In this document: positions 9,691-25,720 of the stretch, piece after piece
Layout of the letters: every line of letters begins with the position of its first letter
Position numbering within the stretch: position 1 is the first letter of the stretch
Origin: an uncultured Nitrospira sp.
GTDB taxonomy: Bacteria > Nitrospirota > Nitrospiria > Nitrospirales > Nitrospiraceae
DNA: 64,000 nucleotides
Direction of reading: 5' to 3'
Assembly (NCBI GenBank): GCA_902500825.1
Contig: CABVRX010000001.1
Span: 62,001-126,000, forward strand
Program-made: the position numbers and the translations under genes
The notes under the pieces: model-generated
Databases searched by the model: none
Told to the model about the DNA's origin: nothing
Seen by the model: the letters and a program-made list of their open reading frames with translations, nothing else

Positions 9691-10071
9691 ATGGCGGTAG
9701 ATCCAAACATGAGAATCCTCGTGGTCGATGATATGGTGACGATGAGAAGAATCGTTAAAAATATCCTGAAACAGTTGGGATTCGCCAATACAGACGAAGC
9801 GGAAAACGGACAGGAGGCGCTGCAGAAGTTGCGGGCAGACACGTATGGGTTCGTCGTGTCTGACTGGAATATGCCGGTCATGACGGGGATCGACATGCTC
9901 CGCGCGATTCGAGCGGACGAGAAGCTCAAAGCAACACCGGTCTTGATGGTCACGGCGGAGGCGCAACAGAGCAATTTGATCGAGGCGGTGCAAGCAGGCG
10001 TCAGCAACTATATCGTCAAGCCGTTTACAGCCGAGACCTTACAGGAAAAGATCGCGAAGATTTTTAAGTAA
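9691..10071 (+). CDS. cheY: Chemotaxis response regulator CheY (CheZ-linked)
   Basis: A 126-residue single receiver domain close to proteobacterial CheY. The acidic pair D13-D14, phospho-acceptor D58 in SDWNMPVM, T88 in VTAEA, Y107 and K110 in NYIVKPF are all present. Phosphorylated CheY binds the flagellar switch. It is followed directly by cheZ, whose product would dephosphorylate it, then by motA and motB. A strong ribosome-binding site (AAAGGAGG) supports the start. Confidence 0.95.
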
Positions 10072-10116: not shown

Positions 10117-10704
10117 GTGCATAAACTAGAGCATAAATTATACGAAGAACTCGGGACCTTGACCCGTTTTGTCGACAGCGCGATGAAAGCCATCTCTGCG
10201 GCCAGCCCGCAGATCATGTCCGGCAGCACTCAGCTTCCTGCCGCTGTCTCCCATTTGAGCGACTTGAGCAAGATGACGGAGGACGGCACGCTTGAAGTCA
10301 TGCGTTTGACGGAGATGATTCAGGACAATCACGGGAGGATCGCCAAGGATCTCTCCGCGATCACGGAGGTACTGCAGACGATGGATTGCCCGACCCTTGC
10401 CGGACGTCTTGGGAACGTGACCTCCGTTCTCGCACAGGACGGAAAATGTTTGACGGAGATCATGACCGCCCTATCCTTTCAAGATCTCGTGGCTCAGCGA
10501 GTGAAGAAACTCGTCTCGATTCTTGACGAAGTGCAAGGAAGGCTGATGGAACTCGTTGTCGTGTTCGGATTACAGGAAAGCTGCGAGGCGGCACGTGATG
10601 CGGGCACAGCCGGGGATTTGCTCAAACAACTTGAGAAATCGAACACGACGGCCATGAAGCAGAAGGTCGCCGACGACATCCTGGCTCAATTCGGGTTCAA
10701 ATGA
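10117..10704 (+). CDS. cheZ: CheY-P phosphatase CheZ
   Basis: A 195-residue helical protein. The active-site motif SFQDLVAQ gives D123 and Q127, matching the catalytic Asp and Gln of E. coli CheZ (D143, Q147; same spacing). The C-terminus, VADDILAQFGFK, resembles the CheY-binding tail helix of CheZ. The start is a GTG at 10117 behind GAGAGGGG. It lies 45 bases after cheY, as expected for a phosphatase-substrate pair. Confidence 0.92.
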   Translation: MHKLEHKLYEELGTLTRFVDSAMKAISAASPQIMSGSTQLPAAVSHLSDLSKMTEDGTLEVMRLTEMIQDNHGRIAKDLSAITEVLQTMDCPTLAGRLGNVTSVLAQDGKCLTEIMTALSFQDLVAQRVKKLVSILDEVQGRLMELVVVFGLQESCEAARDAGTAGDLLKQLEKSNTTAMKQKVADDILAQFGFK

Positions 10705-12503: not shown

Positions 12504-12806
12504 ATGGCAGACGGGCAATCGTCGTCTCCGACACCTCGAGTTGAAGGGCAGGACGCAAGGCATTTGGCGCCCACGGGCGAACTCACCATTTTTGAGGCGG
12601 CTGAATTTAGGGAATCATTAGTGAAATTGTTCGCCAACGAAGGGATGGTCTCGCTGGATCTCAGCGGCGTCGCCAGAGCCGACACGGCGGCAATTCAACT
12701 GATGCTGGCCGCGCGCAAGCAAGGGCGCATGTTCGTAACGGGTATCTCCGATGACCTTCAGACGAAATTGAATCAGCTGGGATTTACAGACTCTCTGAGC
12801 GAGTGA
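12504..12806 (+). CDS. STAS domain protein
   Basis: A 100-residue STAS domain (LAPTGELTIFEAAEF near residue 21; LDLSGVARADTAAIQLMLA near residue 51). The residue at the phosphorylation position of anti-anti-sigma factors is Thr in ADTAA, not the usual Ser. Such small STAS proteins are common in chemotaxis clusters of this type (order STAS-CheZ-like-CheY-CheA) and may act as scaffold or phosphorylation switch. Function here is not known. Confidence 0.8.
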   Translation: MADGQSSSPTPRVEGQDARHLAPTGELTIFEAAEFRESLVKLFANEGMVSLDLSGVARADTAAIQLMLAARKQGRMFVTGISDDLQTKLNQLGFTDSLSE

Positions 12807-12893: not shown

Positions 12894-13436
12894 ATGAACT
12901 CATCGGGACACCACAATAGAAGGCCCGATCATTCTCTTGCCGGCGATGAAACGACACTCAGCGCGCTTCTCGATCATCAACGGGCATGGGAGATTTTTGC
13001 GACCGAATCCATGCATATGATCCCGGTATTGAAGGCTCAGATGACCGCTGTGACGCAAGAGACCGAGAGAGCGGCCATGGAGTTAGTGCTTCATCTCCGA
13101 ATGCTGGCATCTCCGGAAAGAGCGGCGTCGTCAAAAGACGACTCGGCCAGCCTGTCCAAGGTCGTGATGGCGATGCAGTTCCAAGACATCACACGTCAAA
13201 AGCTGGAGCATGTCGGTCTGGCGTTGGATCGACTACAGGCGCATCTGCAGGCTCTATTGAAAGGACCAGGTGACGAAGCGGCAAAGAAAGAGATTGCCGA
13301 GTTGGAGCTGGTTGAGCAGCACTATACCATGGAGGAGGAACGTCGCCTGCATGCGGCGGTGTTAGGGCCGGATTACGGAGAACCGGTGCCCATGGACATG
13401 TCGAGCAAAGAGTCTGATTCCGTCACACTCTTTTAG
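12894..13436 (+). CDS. Second CheZ-like chemotaxis phosphatase (putative)
   Basis: A 180-residue helical protein. Residues 94-110 read AMQFQDITRQKLEHVGL, closely matching the CheZ active-site helix: D98 and Q102 sit at the catalytic Asp and Gln positions (Asp-x3-Gln). The true CheZ at 10117-10704 has SFQDLVAQ at the same place. The rest of the protein diverges, and it ends in SDSVTLF, not a CheZ-type tail. It is followed by a second cheY and cheA, so it may dephosphorylate that CheY. Family known; exact activity inferred. Confidence 0.65.
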   Translation: MNSSGHHNRRPDHSLAGDETTLSALLDHQRAWEIFATESMHMIPVLKAQMTAVTQETERAAMELVLHLRMLASPERAASSKDDSASLSKVVMAMQFQDITRQKLEHVGLALDRLQAHLQALLKGPGDEAAKKEIAELELVEQHYTMEEERRLHAAVLGPDYGEPVPMDMSSKESDSVTLF

Positions 13437-13492: not shown

Positions 13493-13864
13493 ATGGGCAA
13501 GACCGCACTGATCGTCGATGATTCACCCACCATGCGGCAGATGGTGGCTTTTACGCTGACAAATGCCGGTTTTACCGTGGTCGAAGCGCAAGACGGAAAG
13601 GATGCGGTCAACAAGGTCTCCGGCGGCGCGAAAATGGATATCGTCGTCACTGACCTCAATATGCCGGAGATGGATGGGATCGCTCTCATCAAAGAATTGC
13701 GACGATTGAGCGCCTTCAAATTCACTCCTATTCTCATGCTTACGACCGAATCGGCTGCGGAAAAGAAGCAGGCCGGTAAAGAGGCTGGAGCGACCGGATG
13801 GATCGTGAAGCCTTTCAATCCTGAAGTTCTTTTAAAGACGATCGCCAAAGTATTGCCGGCATGA
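13493..13864 (+). CDS. Second CheY response regulator
   Basis: A 123-residue single receiver domain with intact chemistry: an acidic pair at 9-10, phospho-acceptor Asp in VVTDLNMPEMDG, Thr in LTTES and Lys in WIVKPF. A Trp replaces the switch Tyr before VKPF. It is more like the CheY paralogues that sit beside cheA than the cheZ-linked CheY at 9691. CGGAGGGG precedes the ATG. A phosphate sink or a second output is possible. Confidence 0.92.
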   Translation: MGKTALIVDDSPTMRQMVAFTLTNAGFTVVEAQDGKDAVNKVSGGAKMDIVVTDLNMPEMDGIALIKELRRLSAFKFTPILMLTTESAAEKKQAGKEAGATGWIVKPFNPEVLLKTIAKVLPA

Positions 13865-14003: not shown

Positions 14004-16172
14004 ATGAGCAACGATTTTGCACAGTTTCAAGACGCCTTTTTCGATGAAGCGGCTGAACATCTTGCGGTCGTCGAGGAAGGGCTTCTGGAACTGGAACAAC
14101 ATCCTGAGGATCTGGACCTCCTCAACAAGATTTTCCGCTCCGCTCACTCGATCAAGGGTACGGCCGGCATGTTCGGTTTCAATGCCGTCGCGCAATTTAC
14201 TCATAAGATGGAGACGCTGCTCGATCTGCTGCGGAACGGGCAGAAGGCCGTGTCCCCATCGATTGCCGACCTCCTCCTGAAATCGACGGATTGTTTGAAG
14301 ACGTTGATCGAGTCGGTCAAGACGGGTGCAGCCGTCGACGAAGAAACGGCGAGACGACTCACGACAGAGCTTGCGGCGGCGAGCGCATCGGATTCGCAGC
14401 CAGCGGTGGCAGGGTCGACTAACAAAGTAGCGCCCGCTGGTTCAGCCGCGAACTGCAGCGGAGATCGGACGTATGTGATCGCGTGGACGCCGCCCGAATG
14501 GCTGTTTCAACGAGGCCTCGATCCGCTGCAGACGTTTAAGGAATTAAAAAACCTCGGCAGCCTGACCGAAGTGACGCTCGATATGTCTCGGTTGCCGGAG
14601 CTTGCCGACATCGATTCGGAGAAATGTTATCTGTCCTGGGGAATGCAGCTGACCACCGATAAAGATCAGACGGTAATCGAGTCCGCCTTTGAGTTTGTCA
14701 GAGAAGACAGCGCGTTATCGATCCAGTTGGTTGAGAACAAGGGCGCGCAAGCGCAGAGCCTTATAACAGAGACGAGCGCCTCTGCCGAAACGGAGAGTCC
14801 TAAACCGCTTGGAGAAATTTTGGTGGAGAGTGGCGTCGTTTCACGTGAGACGCTGGATCAGGCACTGGCCCAGCAAAAGCGCGTCGGCCAGATTCTTGTA
14901 GAGCAGAAAGCCGCCACGCCGCAGCAGGTTGAACAGGCGCTGCAGAAACAGCGGCAGCAGGAATCCGCTGCGCAGGCAAAAAAAACAGACACCACCTCCA
15001 TCCGAGTCGATACGGCCAAGATCGACAAGCTCATCAATTTGGTCGGTGAGCTGGTGATCACCCAGTCGATGTTGAGCGATTTAGGGTCTCGATTCGAGAT
15101 GCGGCAACTGCCGGTATTGCTGGAGCGCATGGTGGAGTTGGAACGAAACACACGAGAGATTCAAGAACGTGTCATGAGTATTCGCATGTTGCCCATCGGC
15201 ACCGCATTTGCCAGATTTCCTCGGCTCGTACGCGATCTCTCGGCCAAAGCCGGGAAAAAAATCCAACTTGTTCTGTCCGGAGAAGAAACAGAGTTGGATA
15301 AGACGGTCATTGAGTCGATCGGCGACCCGCTTACGCATCTGGTTCGGAATTCCGCGGACCATGGATTGGAGCCGCCGGAAGAGCGCCTTGACAACAATAA
15401 ACCGGAGGTCGGGACCATCCGGCTTAACGCGTTCCATGAAGGCGGCACTATCTGCATTACCGTGGAGGATGATGGACGTGGATTGAATCGCGATAAGATA
15501 TTGGCGAAGGCGATCAAGCAAGGCTTGATCAGTGAGAGCGAGAAACTGACCGATGATCAAATTTGGCCGTTGGTCTTCAAGCCGGGATTTTCAACGGCCG
15601 AGAAAATCACGGACATATCGGGCCGGGGCGTGGGCATGGATGTCGTGAAGCGGAACATTGAAAATTTGGGAGGGACGGTTAGTATCAAGACAAGGAAAGG
15701 ATATGGGACCACCTTTACGCTCAAGCTTCCGCTAACGCTGGCGATCATTGACGGCATGACGGTGCGGGTCGGCAAGGAAACCTACATCATACCGCTGCTG
15801 TCTATTTTGGAGTCGATTCAGCCCAAAGCCGAATTGATCAAAACCGTGGTCGGCAAGGGCGAACTCATCAATGTCCGGGGCACGTACATTCCAATGGTGC
15901 GGTTGTATGAGGTCTTTGCAAGCGAGCCGGAATATACGGATCCCAAGGAGGCCATTCTTCTCATCTTGGAGACGGAAGGGGAGCGAGTGGCAGTCATGGT
16001 GGACGAAATCCTCGGACAACAGCAAGTTGTCATCAAGAGTATGGAGCAGAATTTTCGCAAGGTCGAAGGCGTCGCTGGGGCCACGATCCTTGGCGACGGC
16101 AGGGTAGGGTTCATCGTCGACGTACGTGGCGTGCTTGAAATCGCGCGCCACGGTCATCCGGTTGCAGCTTGA
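14004..16172 (+). CDS. cheA: Chemotaxis histidine kinase CheA
   Basis: A 722-residue kinase. Domains in order: HPt (P1) with phosphorylatable H48 in RSAHSIKGTAG; a variable region; a segment at about 268-318 with two repeats of LGxILVExxxxxxExxxxAL resembling the GspE/MshE N-terminal domain; P3 dimerisation helices (IDKLINLVGELVITQSM) from about 335; P4 ATPase with LVRNSADHGLE, EDDGRGL and GRGVGMDVVK; and a CheW-like P5 at about 590-715. It phosphorylates CheY and CheB. It is followed by cheW. No clear P2 domain is visible; the GspE-like segment takes its place. Confidence 0.97.
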   Translation: MSNDFAQFQDAFFDEAAEHLAVVEEGLLELEQHPEDLDLLNKIFRSAHSIKGTAGMFGFNAVAQFTHKMETLLDLLRNGQKAVSPSIADLLLKSTDCLKTLIESVKTGAAVDEETARRLTTELAAASASDSQPAVAGSTNKVAPAGSAANCSGDRTYVIAWTPPEWLFQRGLDPLQTFKELKNLGSLTEVTLDMSRLPELADIDSEKCYLSWGMQLTTDKDQTVIESAFEFVREDSALSIQLVENKGAQAQSLITETSASAETESPKPLGEILVESGVVSRETLDQALAQQKRVGQILVEQKAATPQQVEQALQKQRQQESAAQAKKTDTTSIRVDTAKIDKLINLVGELVITQSMLSDLGSRFEMRQLPVLLERMVELERNTREIQERVMSIRMLPIGTAFARFPRLVRDLSAKAGKKIQLVLSGEETELDKTVIESIGDPLTHLVRNSADHGLEPPEERLDNNKPEVGTIRLNAFHEGGTICITVEDDGRGLNRDKILAKAIKQGLISESEKLTDDQIWPLVFKPGFSTAEKITDISGRGVGMDVVKRNIENLGGTVSIKTRKGYGTTFTLKLPLTLAIIDGMTVRVGKETYIIPLLSILESIQPKAELIKTVVGKGELINVRGTYIPMVRLYEVFASEPEYTDPKEAILLILETEGERVAVMVDEILGQQQVVIKSMEQNFRKVEGVAGATILGDGRVGFIVDVRGVLEIARHGHPVAA

Positions 16173-16232: not shown

Positions 16233-16748
16233 ATGGACAAGGAAACCAAAGACCTCAATCAGCAAGCGGGGTTGAGCACGGACGGGAGTCAGTTTTTGAC
16301 CTTCAGTCTTGGAGACGAGTTGTACGGGGTCGATATTCTCCGTGTGCAGGAGATCAAGGGGTATACCGCCGTGACCAAGATCCCCAATACACCATCTCAC
16401 ATTAAGGGGGTTCTGAATCTGCGGGGAACCATTGTGCCCATCGTCGAGCTGCGGACCAAGTTCGGTATGCCGACCATCGACTACACGACGTTCACCGTCA
16501 TTATTGTCGTGGTAGTGCAGGACAAAGTGATGGGGTTGGTGGTCGATGCCGTATCAGATGTGCTCGACATCGAAAAAAAGGATATTCAGTCGGCGCCGGA
16601 TTTTGGAAATCAGGTGGATGTGACCTTCTTAAATGGGGTCGGAAAGTCCGGCGACAAATTGATATCGCTCTTGGACATCGACAGGTTGCTCCTGGATTCA
16701 GCCGGGAAAGATTTATCAAAAGATGTACCGGTTGCGGCTGCAGCGTAA
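16233..16748 (+). CDS. cheW: Chemotaxis coupling protein CheW
   Basis: A 171-residue CheW that couples receptors to CheA. Typical motifs are FSLGDELYGVDILRVQEI, then TPSHIKGVLNLRGTIVPIVELR, and VVDAVSDVLDI. The N-terminal 20 residues are variable. It lies 60 bases after cheA, with GGAGGAG ahead of the ATG. Confidence 0.97.
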   Translation: MDKETKDLNQQAGLSTDGSQFLTFSLGDELYGVDILRVQEIKGYTAVTKIPNTPSHIKGVLNLRGTIVPIVELRTKFGMPTIDYTTFTVIIVVVVQDKVMGLVVDAVSDVLDIEKKDIQSAPDFGNQVDVTFLNGVGKSGDKLISLLDIDRLLLDSAGKDLSKDVPVAAAA

Positions 16749-17113: not shown

Positions 17114-19447
17114 GTGACCAGCCATGATTGTCAGAGATCCTCTGAAGCCGACATCCGCTCACGCCCACTCCATAGCCTCCCATCTTTAGGTATTTTCGTT
17201 CTTCCGACCACAAGTATTGTCACACTTCTCGGCTTTATTGGTTTCTGGCTCGCTCCCTCGGAATCGGATTCTATGATAATTCCGTACCTGTCGTCCTTTG
17301 CCGCTTTGTGTTTCATATGGGCGGGAGTTTGCCGATGGATGAACAGGAGGCCAATTGATCTCAAGCGGGCAGAACAGGCCCTGCGGCAAAGTGAAACGCG
17401 ATTGATCGAATCCATTCCTCAGCAGGTCTGGACTGCTCGTCCGGACGGCACATTGGATTATGTGAATCGGCGTGTGCTGGAGTACTTCGATGTTCCGGCA
17501 GAGCGACTGCTCGATTGGGAATGGCAGTCTGTGCTCCATCCTGACGATTTGCCTGCCTGTATGACGGCATGGACCGCTTCTTTGCAAACCGGGGAGCCGT
17601 ATGAGATTGAGTTTCGTCTCAGACAAGCGGGTGCCGGCACCTATCGCTGGTATCTGACCCGCGCTCTGCCGATCAGAAACGAAGCGGGTCGGATCGTGAA
17701 GTGGATCGGGACGAACACTGACATCACTATGCGCCGACAAATGGAAGGGGCATTGTGCGAGAGCGAACAACGGCATCGGAGTGTTGTAAGGGCCATGGCC
17801 GAGGGAATCGTTATTCAGGACAGAATGGGGTGTATTGTCTCATGCAACGCCAGCGCCTGCAGGATTTTTGGGCTCACCGAAGACCAGGTACTGGGCTGCA
17901 CTTCACTTGATCCGCATCCGCAGTGGCAAGCGATCCATGAAGACGGCTCGCCGTTTCCCAGCGAAACTCATCCGACGATGGAAACCCTCCGAAGCGGCCG
18001 CGCCAGCGAGAACGTCGTCATGGGCGTGCACCGACCCGACGGGTCGCTTGTGTGGATTTCGGTCAATACACAACCCATGATGGCGGACGAGAATGCGCTG
18101 CCTTCCGGCGTGGTCGCGTCGTTTCGTGACATCACGGCGCAAAAGCTGGTGGAGGCGGAGCTGCGGCGAGTGCATGATGAATTAGAGCAGCGGGTCAGTG
18201 AACGGACCGCGCAGCTGGCGCTGGCCAATCGATCTCTTCAGGACGAGATCGCCGAGCGGAAACACGTGGAGGAAGCAGTGCGCGACAGCGAATTACGGTA
18301 CAAGCTGTTGACGGAAGCGACGTTTGACGGCATCGCCATCCATGATCAGGGGATCCTGATCGAGGTGAATGCGGGTTTGGAGCGGATATTCGGGTACGGA
18401 CCAGGCGAGCTCATCGGCCGATCCCTATGGGATCTCGTTGCCGACGAATCCCGAGATCTGGTTCTGGCCAATATGCAGAACGGTGTGAACGGGCCCTACG
18501 AAGCCACGGGGCGCCGCAAAGACGGTACAATCTTTCCTGGTGAAGTCGTGGTCAGACCTTGTCGTTATCGCGGAAAGGAAGTCCGATTGGTAGCGGGCCG
18601 TGATATTACCGAGCGCAAATACTTGGAGGCGGAGCGGTCCCGCCATACTGAAGAGTTGGAACATCAGATCGCCGAACGGACCGCCGAGATCGCCAAGCTG
18701 GAATCGCAGCGGGCGCAGACGGAAAAGCTGGCGGCGATGGGCCGTTTAGCGGCCGGCGTCGCGCATGAAATCAATAACCCGATCGCCGGGATTAAGAACG
18801 CCTTTACGCTCGTGAAACAAGCAGTGGATCCAGGCCATCCTCACGCTGAATTCGTCGGCATGATCGATCGCGAGATCGGTCGTGTCGCATCCATCGTCCA
18901 GAATATGTATCAGCTCTATCGACCGGAGTCCGGCAAGGGGGAAGCGGTTGAATTCCAGACCATGATGAACGACATCGATGCACTGTTTGCCAAACGGCTG
19001 CAACAACATCGGCTCGCGCTGTCGATCGATGTGGATCCTGGCCTCGACCGGCTCAGCGTCCCACGAGGGGATTTGCTGCAAGTCTTGCTGAACCTGCTGA
19101 ATAATGCCATCGATTGTTCCAGCGAGGGAGGGATGATCAGACTGACGCTTCGTGTAGAGCCGGATGCGATACGAATTGCCGTGTCCGACCAAGGGCCGGG
19201 CATTTCCCCGGAGCATCTCCCGCACATTTTCGACCCGTTCTTTACGACAAAGACGGAAGGAGATCAGAAAGGTATGGGACTGGGGCTTTCCATCTCTCAG
19301 AGTCTGGTGATGGCGATGGGAGGCAAGATTGAAGTCCAGACTCAGTCGGTCGGAGGATCGACGTTCTCGGTTCTTCTGCCGCGTCTCACGGCTGGTGCTT
19401 GTGTGCAGGATCAATCTGACATCATAAAGGAGGTTGTGACCCTATGA
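17114..19447 (+). CDS. Multi-PAS sensor histidine kinase
   Basis: A 777-residue hybrid-free histidine kinase. Two membrane segments lie near the N-terminus (about 25-45 and 55-75). Three PAS domains follow (about 90-215, 220-345 and 395-510), separated by coiled coils. HisKA has its His in GVAHEINNPIAG near residue 550. HATPase has N, G1 and G2 boxes (NLLNNAIDCS, SDQGPGI, GMGLGLSI). The start is a GTG at 17114. It overlaps the next response regulator gene by four bases, so the two form a pair. The signal is unknown. Confidence 0.9.
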   Translation: MTSHDCQRSSEADIRSRPLHSLPSLGIFVLPTTSIVTLLGFIGFWLAPSESDSMIIPYLSSFAALCFIWAGVCRWMNRRPIDLKRAEQALRQSETRLIESIPQQVWTARPDGTLDYVNRRVLEYFDVPAERLLDWEWQSVLHPDDLPACMTAWTASLQTGEPYEIEFRLRQAGAGTYRWYLTRALPIRNEAGRIVKWIGTNTDITMRRQMEGALCESEQRHRSVVRAMAEGIVIQDRMGCIVSCNASACRIFGLTEDQVLGCTSLDPHPQWQAIHEDGSPFPSETHPTMETLRSGRASENVVMGVHRPDGSLVWISVNTQPMMADENALPSGVVASFRDITAQKLVEAELRRVHDELEQRVSERTAQLALANRSLQDEIAERKHVEEAVRDSELRYKLLTEATFDGIAIHDQGILIEVNAGLERIFGYGPGELIGRSLWDLVADESRDLVLANMQNGVNGPYEATGRRKDGTIFPGEVVVRPCRYRGKEVRLVAGRDITERKYLEAERSRHTEELEHQIAERTAEIAKLESQRAQTEKLAAMGRLAAGVAHEINNPIAGIKNAFTLVKQAVDPGHPHAEFVGMIDREIGRVASIVQNMYQLYRPESGKGEAVEFQTMMNDIDALFAKRLQQHRLALSIDVDPGLDRLSVPRGDLLQVLLNLLNNAIDCSSEGGMIRLTLRVEPDAIRIAVSDQGPGISPEHLPHIFDPFFTTKTEGDQKGMGLGLSISQSLVMAMGGKIEVQTQSVGGSTFSVLLPRLTAGACVQDQSDIIKEVVTL

Positions 19448-20211
19448 TCACTGAGATGCCCAGGGTTCTGCTCGCCGACGATGAAGACACGTTCCGTCTC
19501 GCGACGGCGAGGCTTTTGGAGCAAGAGGGCTATCGCTGCGATTGCGCGCAGGACTCGCAAGAAGCCGGTAGACTCCTGACGAGTCAGCATGATGCCCTCA
19601 TTACCGATATCCGTATGCCGGGCAACATGCAATTCGAATTTCTCCGGGATATCCGCGCCCAATTCCCTTCGCTTCCAATCGTGCTCGTGACCGGCTATCC
19701 CTCTGTTCAAACTGCCGTGGAAGCACTCCGCCTGTCGTTCACAGACTACCTGCTCAAGCCGGTCGATTGGCCGGATTTGCTTCGTGCGGTGGGCGAAGCG
19801 GTGAAAAGGACCAGCCTTTTGCGTATGACCACGGCGGTTCGAGAAGAAGCGAGTCGACTGGTTGCTTCCTTGGAGCAGGTGCAAGATCACTTGCCTCGGC
19901 CCGGAAGCGGGGCGAGCGAACGAGAGTTGGCATGGTCTCTCGACGCGTTCCTTTCCCAGAGTTTTTCCCAGATGGCCGTCTTGTCTTCCAGGATTCGGTC
20001 CGTTCTGACGAGTCAGTTACAAGGCGGCGCCGAAGCGCCCACTGATGTCTGTCGCATGATGCAATGTCCGAGACTCGATGGGTATCGAGAAGCGCTTGAG
20101 AGTACCGTTGAGGTTCTGGCGAACACCAGGCACGCATTTCCATCCAAGGACCTTGGATTGTTACAGGGTAAAATTGAACAGTTACTCCGCGAAGATGCAA
20201 TGAATTCATAG
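19444..20211 (+). CDS. Response regulator with helical C-terminal domain
   Basis: A 255-residue protein with a complete receiver domain (residues 7-125; acidic pair in LADDED, phospho-acceptor in ITDIRMPG, Lys in LLKPVDW). The remaining 130 residues are helical, with no DNA-binding or enzymatic motif that I recognise. It is translationally coupled to the PAS histidine kinase upstream, its likely kinase. The output is unknown; protein-protein interaction with the chemotaxis or motor proteins is possible. Confidence 0.82.
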   Translation: MITEMPRVLLADDEDTFRLATARLLEQEGYRCDCAQDSQEAGRLLTSQHDALITDIRMPGNMQFEFLRDIRAQFPSLPIVLVTGYPSVQTAVEALRLSFTDYLLKPVDWPDLLRAVGEAVKRTSLLRMTTAVREEASRLVASLEQVQDHLPRPGSGASERELAWSLDAFLSQSFSQMAVLSSRIRSVLTSQLQGGAEAPTDVCRMMQCPRLDGYREALESTVEVLANTRHAFPSKDLGLLQGKIEQLLREDAMNS

Positions 20212-20471: not shown

Positions 20472-20588
20472 CGTTTGAGCGGGCAGGGGGAAGACCTGTC
20501 GTTTCAAGACCACTTCGGTGGCGCTCGAAACAGAGTTTGCGTAGGGACTCCACGAAGAAATGGATGGAGTTCGATTTATGGAGGGCGC

Positions 20589-22895
20589 ATGCTGAACGCG
20601 TTCAAGAACCTCAGCATCAGGTTCAAACTGTTGTGCGGGTTCGGGGTTATCGGATTCCTGCTTCTCGTCATCGGCGGCTTGTCCATTGTGGGCATGAATC
20701 GGCTGAATGGGAACGCGGAGTTTATCTATAAAACGAACTTGCTTGGGGTCACGGTCTTGAGCGATCTGCGCGCGCAGATGTTGCGCAGGAGCAACTTCGT
20801 GGTCTGGCACATTCTGGCGAATGACGCGGCTACGATGGCGGCGCGGGAAAAGAGCATCACGGATCTTGATAAAGAAATCGAGGGTCTTGTGGCAAAGTAT
20901 GTCCCGCTCATCGTCGCGGAAGAGGAAAAAAAGGTCTTTGAGAAATTACAAGCCGGGATACCCGGGTATATGGAAGTCCGGAAGAAAGTGTTGCAGCTCA
21001 GTAAGAATTACAGCAAGGACGCCGCGACGGAGGTCCAGAAGACCGAACTGGCCGAGAAAATCACCGTGCTCTATGACGCGGTCGACTGGTTGGTTAAAGA
21101 AAATAATAGGCAGGCGGAGGAAAGCTATCAATCCGGCCACGATCTCAGCACGAGCCTGAATTGGGGCATGAGCATCCTGAACATCAGCGTGCTCCTCATC
21201 GGCGGGTTCACCGTGTGGTTTGTGTCCAAACTGATCAGTCAGAACTTGCTGAATGTGCTGGACGCGGCGCATAAGCTCCAAGGCGGGCAGCTGACTCATC
21301 GTTCGACGGTCACGGCACAGGACGAAATCGGGCAGCTGGCCAAGGCGTTCAACCAGATGGCCGAGTCGCTGGAGAGCGCGGCAGCCAAACAGGAACAGGC
21401 GCTGAAAGCGCAGGCAGCGGAGCTGAGCGGTGTTACGAACGCTATTGGACGAGTGCAGGCTTGCATTGAATTCAATGTCGACGGGACGATCGTAACGGCC
21501 AATGACAATTTCCTCGGGTGCGTCGGGTATGGCATGCACGAGATCAAGGGCCAGCATCACCGGATGTTCTGCGATCCGGCGCATGCCAGCAGCGGCGAAT
21601 ATGCGGCGTTCTGGCAGAAGCTCAACCGGGGAGAGTCTGATTCTGGCCAATATCGATGGGTCGGTAAGGGTGGGAAGGAGATCTGGCTTCAGGCCTGCTA
21701 CAGTCCGCTCCTCGACGTCAACGACAAGGTGTGCAAGGTAGTGCAATTTGCGACGGACATTACCGCCCAAAAACAAAATCAAGCGGAGACGGAGAAGTTG
21801 GTGTCGGATGCGCAGGTGGTGTTGGGGCGACTGGCTGCCAACGATTTGACCGAAGAAATGACCGGCGCATATCAAGGGGAATTGGACAAGATCAAGCTCA
21901 GCATCAACGGCGTGGTGCACAACTTGGTGGACACAATCGCCGCCGTGCGCGAGTCGGTGGAGGCAGTGGCGACGGGAGCCGAGGAGATTACGAAGGGCAA
22001 CGAGGACCTGTCTCAACGAACCAGCGAACAGGCCTCGGCACTGGAAGAGACCAGCGCCTCGATGGAAGAGATGACGTCCACCGTGAAACAGAACGCCGAT
22101 AACGCCAAGCAGGCCAATCAACTGGCGGTGGCCGCGCGGGACACGGCGGACAAGGGAGGGGCTGTCACGAAACGAGCCGTGGACGCAATGGGGGAGATCA
22201 ACAAGAGCAGCAAGAAGATCGCCGACATTATCACGGTGATCGACGAGATCGCGTTCCAGACGAATCTTCTGGCCTTGAACGCGGCGGTAGAAGCGGCGCG
22301 GGCGGGAGAACATGGGCGCGGCTTCGCCGTGGTGGCGGCGGAGGTGCGGAATTTGGCGCAGCGCTCGGCGACGGCGGCAAAAGAAATCAAAGGACTGATC
22401 AACGAGTCGATTCAGCGGGTGAACGACGGCAGCGAGCTTGTCAATCAGTCAGGAAAGACGCTGGAAGAAATCGTAAGCGCGGTAAAGCGGGTTGGTGACA
22501 TTATCGCTGAGATCACGGCCGCCTCCCAAGAACAGGCGAGCGGGATCGATCAGGTAAACAAGGCGATCATGGCTATGGATGAAACGACACAACAGAATGC
22601 GGCCTTGGTGGAGGAGACCACGAGCGCCAGTCAGTCGATGCGGAGTCAAGCGACGGAACTCCTGCGCCGAATGGCGTTGTTCAAGATCCAGAAGATGTCC
22701 GAGGCAGAGAAAGCGGGAAGCGTGGCGATCGCCAGCGTGAGGGAAAATACCGCACGCTCGATCGACCGTGCGTATAATGCTCGAGAACGGAAACCGGAAA
22801 TACCGCGCCCGCCTCGCACGAGTGCGCCGAAGAAAGCTATGGTCGTTGCCGGAGGGAATGTCTCACGAGGGTCGGAGGAGTTCGAAGAGTTTTAA
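20589..22895 (+). CDS. Methyl-accepting chemotaxis protein with PAS domain
   Basis: A 768-residue chemoreceptor. A membrane segment at about 15-35 is followed by a four-helix periplasmic domain (about 38-190), a second membrane segment (about 195-215), HAMP, a PAS domain (about 285-395) and the methyl-accepting signalling tip ([20 protein letters not shown]). The C-terminus ends in EEFEEF, matching the aromatic pentapeptide that tethers CheR/CheB (x-F-x-x-F). The frame opens at 20475, but GGAGGG before the ATG at 20589 and the membrane topology decide this start. cheR follows. Confidence 0.95.
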
Positions 22896-23153: not shown

Positions 23154-23972
23154 ATGGTATACGCCATCTCGACAGAGGAGTATCAACAATTCCGTAGGCT
23201 CATCTATGACGAGAGCGGGATTGAGCTCGGTGATCAGAAGCAGACGTTGGTTGCCTCACGGCTCTCGAATCGTCTACGCGAGCTTGGGCTGAAGACATTC
23301 TCCGACTACTATGGACAGGTGGTGGAAGATCCCAGCCGAGAAGAATTTACCCGTCTGCTGGATCTGATCTCAACCAATAAGACCGATTTCTTTCGTGAGC
23401 CGAAACATTTCGAGTTTCTCCGTGACAGGATTCTTCCAGAACTGGCGCAAGAAAAACGCGTCCGCATCTGGTCGTCCGCATGCTCGACCGGTGAAGAACC
23501 CTATACGATTGCCATGACTCTCTTCGAACATGCGCGGAATCCGGACCAGTGGGATTTCAAGATACTCGCTTCGGACCTGTCAACCCGAGTGCTGGCCAAA
23601 GCGGCCGCCGGCACCTACGGCGAAGACCGCTTCCGCGATGTGCCGCCGGAGGTGCTGCGGCGGCATTTCTTACGCGGGCGGGGGAACAGCGCGGGCTTCT
23701 TCAAGGTGAAGCCGCATCTTGCCGCGGTGATTCAGTTTCGTCGGCTCAACTTGATGGACAGTGAGTTTCCCATTAAGAGTCCTCTGGACCTGATTTTCTG
23801 CCGGAATGTCATGATCTACTTTGACAGGCCAACCCAGGAAACACTGGTCAATAAATTCCACCGCTATCTGAAGCCTGGTAAATATCTCTTTATCGGGCAT
23901 TCCGAGAGTCTCCAATGGGTGAATCACACGTTCAAATCGTTGGCTCCGACGATCTATCAGAAGGAGTGTTGA
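23154..23972 (+). CDS. cheR: Chemotaxis methyltransferase CheR
   Basis: A 272-residue enzyme that methylates receptor glutamates using S-adenosylmethionine. The helical N-domain (about 1-75) precedes the SAM-binding fold, with NKTDFFREPKHF, WSSACSTGEEPYTIAM near residue 105 and the motif DLIFCRNVMIYFD near residue 210. Length is normal. The neighbouring receptor ends in a CheR-tethering pentapeptide. cheD begins 5 bases downstream. Confidence 0.96.
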   Translation: MVYAISTEEYQQFRRLIYDESGIELGDQKQTLVASRLSNRLRELGLKTFSDYYGQVVEDPSREEFTRLLDLISTNKTDFFREPKHFEFLRDRILPELAQEKRVRIWSSACSTGEEPYTIAMTLFEHARNPDQWDFKILASDLSTRVLAKAAAGTYGEDRFRDVPPEVLRRHFLRGRGNSAGFFKVKPHLAAVIQFRRLNLMDSEFPIKSPLDLIFCRNVMIYFDRPTQETLVNKFHRYLKPGKYLFIGHSESLQWVNHTFKSLAPTIYQKEC

Positions 23973-23976
23973 CCGC

Positions 23977-24588
23977 ATGCCTCCGATGGATCTGGAGCAA
24001 TTTGCGCATATTCGACGCATGCGTGACAGCCGATTTCCCCATGAGATTGCGTGCATCCTACCGGGTGAATTTTTTGTGAGTGCCGATCCCATGGTTGTGT
24101 ACACCGTGCTCGGTTCATGCATCTCGGCCTGTGTCCGTGATCCAATCGCCGGCGTGGGGGGGATGAATCATTTTATGTTACCGAAGCCGAAAGATGGAAA
24201 CTGCGACGCATGGGGGGAATCAACTCGATATGGGTCCTATGCCATGGAGTCGTTGATCAACGGTATTCTCAAACGAGGAGGAATCAAGAGCCGGTTAGAG
24301 ATTAAGCTGTTCGGCGCCGGGAAAATTTATGACGGGAACATCGATGTCGGCGCTCGAAATACCGAATGGGTCTTGGAGTATCTCAAGACCGAAGGATTAT
24401 CCGCCGGTAAGACTGATTTGGGCGATGTGTATCCGCGCAAAGTGTACTACTTCACCGAGTCGGGGAGAGTGTTGCTGAAAAAACTTGAGCGGCTGAAGAA
24501 CCGAACGATCGAGGTTCGTGAACAAGAGTACGCCGCCACGATTCAAACGCGCAAACAGGCCGCGGAGGAAGAAGTCACGCTGTTTTGA
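23977..24588 (+). CDS. cheD: Chemoreceptor glutamine deamidase CheD
   Basis: A 203-residue deamidase that converts receptor glutamines to glutamates. The catalytic Cys and His are present in VLGSCISACVRDP (C48) and GGMNHFMLP (H65), at the normal 17-residue spacing. The protein ends in EEEVTLF, the same last four residues as the CheZ-like protein at 12894-13436. CheD can also bind CheC or CheY-type partners in other bacteria. It sits between cheR and cheB. Confidence 0.94.
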   Translation: MPPMDLEQFAHIRRMRDSRFPHEIACILPGEFFVSADPMVVYTVLGSCISACVRDPIAGVGGMNHFMLPKPKDGNCDAWGESTRYGSYAMESLINGILKRGGIKSRLEIKLFGAGKIYDGNIDVGARNTEWVLEYLKTEGLSAGKTDLGDVYPRKVYYFTESGRVLLKKLERLKNRTIEVREQEYAATIQTRKQAAEEEVTLF

Positions 24589-24655: not shown

Positions 24656-25720
24656 ATGCAAAAGATTCGAGTCTTGACCGTCGATGACTCGGCGCTTATG
24701 CGGCAGGTGCTCGCCACCTTGCTCGCAAAGGACCCGGATATCGAAGTTGTCGGCGCAGCGCCGGATCCCTACATTGCGCGAGAGAGGATTAAGGCGCTGA
24801 ACCCGGATGTGCTCACTCTTGATGTCGAGATGCCCAAGATGGATGGGTTGACCTTCTTGGAAAAGCTGATGCGAGGGCATCCGATGCCGGTGGTGATGGT
24901 GAGTTCGCTGACGGAAATCGGCTGCCAGACCACATTGCGCGCGTTGGAACTCGGAGCGGTCGATTTCATCGCCAAGCCGAAGATCGATCTTCGGGAAGGC
25001 ATGAATGAGATCGCTCAGGATCTCATCGCCAAGATCAAAGCCGCCGCCGTGGCTCGGGTAAGAGGTAAGGGAATAGGGGGGAATGGTCATCAGAATCCCC
25101 TCGCTTCTCACCCATCACCTCTCGCTTCCGGAAGCGCCATGATCAAGACCACTGATACGATCATTGCCATCGGGTCTTCGACCGGTGGGACAGAAGCGGT
25201 GAAGGAAGTCTTGGAAAAGCTCCCATCGAATACCCCGCCCATCCTGATTACGCAACATATGCCGGAACGATTCACGAAGACGTGGGCGGACCGGATGAAC
25301 AAGATCTGCAGGATTGCCGTGAAAGAAGCGCAGGATGGAGACAGTGTGTTGCCGGGGCATGCCTTGATTGCGCCGGGCAATTACCACATGACACTAGTCA
25401 GAAGCGGGGCTCGATACACGGTGCAGATCAACCAAGACCCACCGGTCAATCGTCACCGGCCGTCGGTGGATGTCATGTTTGCTTCAGTGGCCCGCTATGC
25501 CGGCGCGAACGCCGTCGGGGTCATCCTGACCGGGATGGGAGGCGACGGCGCCAAAGAAATGTTGACGATGAAACAGGCCGGAGCATTCACGATCGCACAA
25601 GATGAAGCAAGTTGTGTCGTGTTCGGCATGCCGAAAGAAGCGATCAAGGCGGGAGCGGTGGACAAAATTCTTCCGTTGGATGATATCGCCGGATCCATAC
25701 TGGCCCACGTGAGCCGCTGA
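24656..25720 (+). CDS. cheB: Chemotaxis methylesterase/response regulator CheB
   Basis: A 354-residue protein. The receiver domain (1-120) has D10-D11 and phospho-acceptor D56 in [12 protein letters not shown]. The methylesterase domain (about 165-354) has the catalytic Ser in [10 protein letters not shown], His in [10 protein letters not shown] and Asp in [11 protein letters not shown]. It removes receptor methyl groups and completes the adaptation set cheR-cheD-cheB. The interdomain linker (about 135-160) is Gly/Ser/Pro/His-rich and coincides with an imperfect inverted repeat in the DNA. Confidence 0.96.
25058..25129 (+). repeat. Imperfect inverted repeat inside the cheB linker
   Basis: A purine-rich arm made of GTAAGAGGTAAGGG-like units (25058-25081) faces a pyrimidine-rich arm with TCGCTTCTCACC and CACCTCTCGCTT (25097-25129). 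The sequence differs in composition from the rest of cheB and encodes the low-complexity linker in frame. It resembles the inverted repeats at 44337-44400 and 44641-44724. Confidence 0.45.

Follow-up and report, generated by a model that had tools for sequence, protein, structure and literature searches.

The window analysed here, a stretch of 64,000 nucleotides from an uncultured Nitrospira sp., carries a chemotaxis cluster in the order cheY1-cheZ1-motA-motB-STAS-cheZ2-cheY2-cheA-cheW-histidine kinase/response regulator (17114, 19444)-MCP-cheR-cheD-cheB. Besides a classical cheZ (cheZ1), it contains a CheZ-like gene, cheZ2, whose nearest database records are Nitrospira genomes. The features considered are the following:

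9691..10071, + strand: cheY1, classical motor-type CheY (NCBIfam CheY, 181.6 bits)
10117..10704, + strand: cheZ1, classical CheZ (Pfam CheZ, 66.3 bits)
12504..12806, + strand: STAS-domain gene directly 5' of cheZ2, a conserved neighbour
12894..13436, + strand: cheZ2, CheZ-like protein of 180 aa (ORF scored against Pfam, orthologues, AlphaFold2 model)
12951..13115, + strand: N-segment of CheZ2 (residues 20-74), homologous to the N-segment of MCP-CheZ hybrids (hhalign E 1.4e-17, 55 columns)
13116..13433, + strand: C-segment of CheZ2 (residues 75-180) with active-site helix, YTMxxER region, linker and tail, homologous to the hybrid C-terminus (hhalign E 1.5e-37)
13185..13199, + strand: D98-Q102 codons (DxxxQ, putative catalytic pair), invariant in 36 short forms and 40 hybrids
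13422..13433, + strand: C-terminal VTLF tail of cheZ2, putative docking motif (17/17 of the genus sample; [VILM]xLF in 44/47 retrieved short-form ORFs)
13493..13864, + strand: cheY2, likely partner of CheZ2
14004..16172, + strand: cheA, sole kinase of the cluster
16233..16748, + strand: cheW
20475..22895, + strand: MCP, C-terminus FEEF
23154..23972, + strand: cheR
23977..24588, + strand: cheD, with a VTLF tail like that of cheZ2 (tail codons 24574-24585; [VI]TLF in 30/30 related CheD)
24656..25720, + strand: cheB (sequence and gene order)

Since the cluster holds one cheA and the other CheA of the genome (a 1119-aa frame) lies on a separate contig, both CheY proteins encoded here probably share one kinase. 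The first-pass annotation had placed cheZ2 before its own cheY and cheA; cheY2 and cheA do follow, but the kinase is the only one of the cluster rather than a private one. The 1119-aa frame belongs to a second CheA/CheW/MCP cluster on contig C8 (approximately 103-110 kb), perhaps of the pilus chemosensory type. Only in this genome and some relatives is a PAS histidine kinase and response regulator pair (17114-20211) inserted between cheW and the MCP gene. Residues 268-316 of the window CheA (14805-14951), ahead of the dimerisation domain, form an MshEN-type c-di-GMP-binding motif, which is also found in CheA1 and CheA2 of the N. defluvii locus L169 (NCBIfam NF053729, 45-51 bits, cut-off 38); we claim no novelty for it, as MshEN has been reported together with CheA before (PMC5013675).

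The CheZ active-site helix with Asp98 and Gln102 that had been proposed from the sequence is borne out: it reads AMQFQD98ITRQ102, and Q95, F96, Q97 and D98, together with Q102, are invariant across the 36 orthologues of this short form, at identities down to 36%. D98 and Q102 are kept even in loci L022 and L023, where the neighbouring RQ is replaced by GQ. The AxxFQ motif that is conserved next to DxxxQ in the CheZ of Proteobacteria (PMC7750401) is present as A93MQF96Q97. The search with the Pfam CheZ profile (PF04344) gave a divided answer: CheZ2 itself is matched over residues 58-141 with 18.8 bits (E 0.0016), short of the curated cut-off of 30.7, and alone it also stays under the NCBIfam CheZ cut-off, but the match recurs among its relatives, at E <= 0.01 in 24 of the 36 short orthologues (best 2.5e-5) and in 20 of 40 longer MCP-CheZ hybrids described below (best 5.7e-6). 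Moreover, a profile of the CheZ2 family retrieved CheZ1, the genome's own classical CheZ (E 4.6e-5); hhalign of CheZ1 against the short family was weak (probability 12%, E 0.002). Two ordinary MCPs, from this and one related cluster, gave no CheZ match at E 0.05, and hence the similarity of CheZ2 is not a generic coiled-coil signal. The family was matched in 32 of 59 related genomes and, judged by its sequence conservation, cheZ2 is a real, conserved gene.

The two CheZ proteins of the window differ most clearly at their C-termini. CheZ1 ends in the classical manner (VADDILAQFGFK), and this QFGFK-type C-terminus is kept in all loci. CheZ2, which the first-pass annotation had called otherwise unlike the classical protein encoded at 10117, does not carry the classical CheY-binding helix after a flexible linker; its linker is predicted to be disordered and ends in VTLF, a tail that does not resemble that helix. 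Given the sub-threshold curated score and the missing C-terminal helix, we term CheZ2 CheZ-like and not a member of the CheZ family.

AlphaFold2 predicted helices at residues 15-71, 80-123 (which carries D98 and Q102) and 128-156, followed by a disordered tail, with a mean pLDDT of 75.5 and core blocks of about 90. The first two helices of the modelled monomer form a helical hairpin, the unit that pairs into a four-helix bundle in the dimer of classical CheZ, in agreement with the structure anticipated in the first-pass annotation, and the modelled layout matches that of E. coli CheZ, which consists of a hairpin, a linker and a C-terminal motif (PMC7750401). Searches with the model (Foldseek and VIA-align) returned many generic helical hairpins at Z 8-9 without singling out CheZ, with a Thermotoga soluble chemoreceptor at rank 43; such hairpins make fold searches uninformative.

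More distant relatives of CheZ2 are longer ORFs (357-438 aa) that score above cut-off for the Pfam MCPsignal domain; the MCP signalling domain (PF00015) is present in 40/40 of these hybrids and absent from the short form. They share a layout of hydrophobic N-terminus, N-segment, MCP hairpin, QFQDITRQKLEHV helix, YTMxSER and a [VI]xLF tail, and a membrane-anchored hybrid in the cheZ2 slot is the form found in most other Nitrospirota that have the family. A model of a hybrid showed long helices at a low pTM (0.37), so that a coaxial arrangement of the CheZ-like part and the MCP hairpin is putative. The short form and the hybrids align at both ends, over 55 columns in the N-segment (hhalign E 1.4e-17) and 105 columns in the C-segment (E 1.5e-37), with the MCP core between them missing from the short form, and both occupy the slot after the STAS gene and before cheY2-cheA-cheW-MCP-cheR-cheD-cheB. 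In a tree of the adjacent CheA, the 39 short-form rows all cluster together (a single change, SH-aLRT 99); with midpoint rooting, this cluster lies within the hybrids. Phylum-wide, 115/246 genomes match the family profile at E <= 0.001, a count in which some classical CheZ and the short forms are included; at E <= 1e-8, so do 21/148 genomes of the phylum to which a Geobacteraceae genome belongs. DxxxQ and FQ form the invariant core across the two phyla. Taken together, homology at both ends, the common slot, the one-group CheA tree and the phylum-wide hybrids suggest as the simplest history that the MCP core was lost only once, in the Nitrospira lineage to which the window belongs. Hence, the earlier description of CheZ2 as a second, divergent CheZ captured the CheZ-type helix in its predicted hairpin but fell short of the whole, since CheZ2 looks like the remnant of an MCP-CheZ hybrid that lost its receptor core.

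Larger proteins were also seen. A 736-aa protein (L161, 4757-6964) has two CheZ-like matches flanking an MCP-like core, and proteins of 618-640 aa (L162, L163, L182, L187, L189) come from further Nitrospirota and from the phylum to which the Geobacteraceae genome belongs; two CheZ-like matches each are present in L162 and L163, and in the first match of L162 the Gln before the catalytic Asp is replaced by His (FHD). The cluster MCP of N. defluvii (L169, 13696 onwards) has globin and PAS domains, which suggests oxygen or redox sensing as its input, as in the Aer2-like receptors of F7 systems.

The VTLF tail forms the last four residues in 17/17 aligned genus members, and the linker before it is variable. 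We surveyed 4,255 ORFs of at least 100 aa from 80 related loci and the window, and found a [VILM]xLF C-terminus in 44 short forms, 33 hybrids, 20/21 CheD and one other ORF; the ordinary MCPs of these loci end in FEEF. A codon-pattern search of the genome itself left VTLF ends only in CheZ2, CheD and one 47-aa frame, while among 18 loci from other families and phyla [VIL]x[LIFM]F ends 15 of 419 ORFs, 15/15 of them hybrids. The 736-aa hybrid of L161 carries six copies of D(N/G/D)I(E/D)LF in its C-terminal tail. As the tail is common to CheZ2, the hybrids and CheD and to almost nothing else, a short docking motif is the best explanation, and by this distribution VTLF is probably one. Two CheD frames of the Geobacteraceae genome G059, followed to their ends, have no such tail, so its sharing with CheD is not universal. 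CheY2 as the only partner of the tail is disfavoured, because CheD keeps VTLF in genomes G018 and G031 despite a disabled cheY2; with CheZ2 broken there as well, this speaks weakly against either protein as the only partner, and the losses look recent.

CheY2 retains the residues required by CheZ. Among 73 CheY2 sequences, D9, D10, D54, T84 and K106 are invariant, and N56 (71/73) and E86 (73/73), which correspond to N59 and E89 of E. coli CheY, are conserved. CheZ2 always adjoins CheY2, and in complete loci the short form never occurs without cheY1-cheZ1 nearby; fused CheZ2-CheY2 ORFs were sought and none was found. In G018 and G031 a deletion takes most or all of cheZ2 together with the first 25 or 69 cheY2 codons, and cheA, cheW, cheR, cheD, cheB, cheY1 and cheZ1 remain. 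In G012, cheZ2 is without its N-terminal half and has an altered tail, and on contigs L100 and L110 it looks broken (frameshifts, possibly assembly errors); as cheY2 is intact in these three cases, CheY2 may work without CheZ2. The losses in G018, G031 and G012 indicate that the CheY2/CheZ2 branch is dispensable in some lineages, in which CheY1/CheZ1 is retained, and the loss pattern fits a CheZ2 that serves CheY2. In G019 (L196, 4331-4738), cheZ2 breaks off at residue 94 and is fused with the end of a histidine kinase gene; the locus has no cheY2, and the first 116 residues of CheA are missing.

The two forms also differ in the kinases of their genomes. Across 31 related genomes, which are not independent, an F6-like CheA (>590 bits to the N. 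defluvii copy) was found in 8/8 with a hybrid and in 0/23 with a short form. In N. defluvii, F6-like genes (cheZ1, cheA1, cheW, cheY, cheB) lie upstream of motAB-STAS-hybrid; upstream of motAB in short-form loci only cheY1-cheZ1 is left. A takeover of the F6 cheY/cheZ pair by an F7 system has been described for gamma-proteobacteria, and cheZ has been reported only with F6 systems (PMC7184735); by analogy, the short-form loci seem to parallel this takeover. Since short-form genomes have no separate F6-like CheA, one CheA probably now feeds two CheY-CheZ pairs, the motor-type CheY1/CheZ1 and CheY2/CheZ2.

From conservation, hybrid origin, synteny, tail sharing and the association with CheA1 absence, all read from sequence, we postulate with fair though limited confidence that CheZ2 is a soluble CheZ-like phosphatase, most likely for CheY2, which docks by its tail and works in a system where one CheA serves both CheY-CheZ pairs. 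The ancestor would have been a membrane-anchored hybrid with the MCP signalling hairpin between two CheZ-like helices. In CheZ2, two long antiparallel helices would present D98 and Q102 to the active site of CheY2, into which they would extend like Asp143 and Gln147 of E. coli CheZ; the putative activity would be to take the phosphate off CheY2. VTLF, at the end of the flexible linker, would dock within the signalling complex to a component that CheD probably binds as well. Possibly, however, CheZ2 is a phosphatase with no private partner that also acts on CheY1-P, in which case the two CheZ proteins would be partly redundant and not two routes. At the two positions that face CheZ, CheY1 and CheY2 alike retain N (D+2) and E (T+2), the cluster has a single CheA, and short forms in complete loci are never found without the nearby cheY1-cheZ1; yet CheZ2 always sits next to CheY2, the deletion in G018 and G031 takes cheZ2 and cheY2 and spares the other pair, and CheZ1 retains its own QFGFK-type C-terminus in all loci, so that we consider redundancy unlikely. 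Thus, of the separate dephosphorylation routes originally suggested, the conserved CheY2 residues and the joint deletion in two genomes are in favour, but the one CheA for both pairs is not.

Somewhat less likely still, CheZ2 could be mainly a structural or regulatory array protein, which binds CheY2 or another Che protein through its tail and helix and has little phosphatase activity. Its descent from hybrids with an MCP hairpin, its sub-threshold similarity to CheZ and the fact that its most specific feature is a tail in common with CheD would all suit such a role, but the invariance of D98 and Q102, even where RQ has become GQ, is hard to explain without catalysis. Finally, low-complexity helical proteins produce spurious matches, and in the light of the 12% hhalign probability the QFQDITRQ helix might be a chance or convergent look-alike in an MCP-derived coiled coil with no kinship to CheZ. 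We regard this as highly improbable, given that DxxxQ and FQ are the invariant core over two phyla and that Pfam CheZ matches recur in the relatives and not in ordinary MCPs.

A protein may still function as a CheZ when hardly any sequence identity is left, as with the remote CheZ of the F3 class in H. pylori and other Campylobacterota. CheZ homologues of this type have been confirmed experimentally (PMC9321776). This CheZ is not known to be linked with an MCP hybrid or a VTLF tail, and its gene context differs from that of cheZ2. Compared with classical CheZ (PF04344; E. coli 1KMI; CheZ1), CheZ2 is alike in DxxxQ and AxxFQ within a long helical hairpin, in its flexible linker and C-terminal motif and in lying beside a CheY gene, but differs in its score below the curated cut-off, its shorter length, VTLF in place of the CheY-binding helix and its apparent derivation from an MCP-containing hybrid. 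The F7-type cluster (Ortega et al. 2020, PMC7184735) has the same order, STAS (anti-sigma factor antagonist)-cheY-cheA-cheW-chemoreceptor-cheR-cheD-cheB, and its later stages keep the cheY/cheZ pair after loss of the F6 cheA, as in short-form loci; here, however, a CheZ-like gene stands within the F7-like order, between STAS and cheY. The hybrids resemble MCPs in their MCPsignal domain above cut-off but have no recognised ligand-binding domain, and end in a CheZ-like helix and [VI]xLF tail instead of the CheR-tether pentapeptide.

Two features are surprising, the make-up of the hybrids and the tail that they and CheZ2 have in common with CheD: searches for work on MCP-CheZ hybrids, second CheZ proteins or Nitrospira chemotaxis, mostly outside subscription papers, turned up no description of either feature. 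CheZ has so far been treated as a stand-alone protein. We speculate, at slightly less than even confidence, that the hybrids are a widespread, unannotated receptor-like class of Nitrospirota and Desulfobacterota, with a CheZ-type phosphatase built in coaxially to the MCP hairpin and a [VI]xLF docking end, which would terminate signals within the array of receptors and account for CheZ in lineages that are said to have none; CheZ2 would be a branch freed when the cluster kinase took over the motor CheY/CheZ. For Geobacter, for instance, the described absence of CheZ was taken to require a mechanism independent of it (PMC2577667). If receptor-like proteins do contain a CheZ-like module, the list of bacteria with CheZ-type signal termination would change, and phosphatases would be hidden in such proteins of bacteria to which none had been ascribed. 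The hybrids would also provide a link, open to test, between the receptor and CheZ four-helix bundles, and the tail common to CheZ2 and CheD makes a putative new docking interaction testable with peptides. Nitrospirota would be a second case in which one chemosensory system has apparently inherited the motor CheY/CheZ of another.
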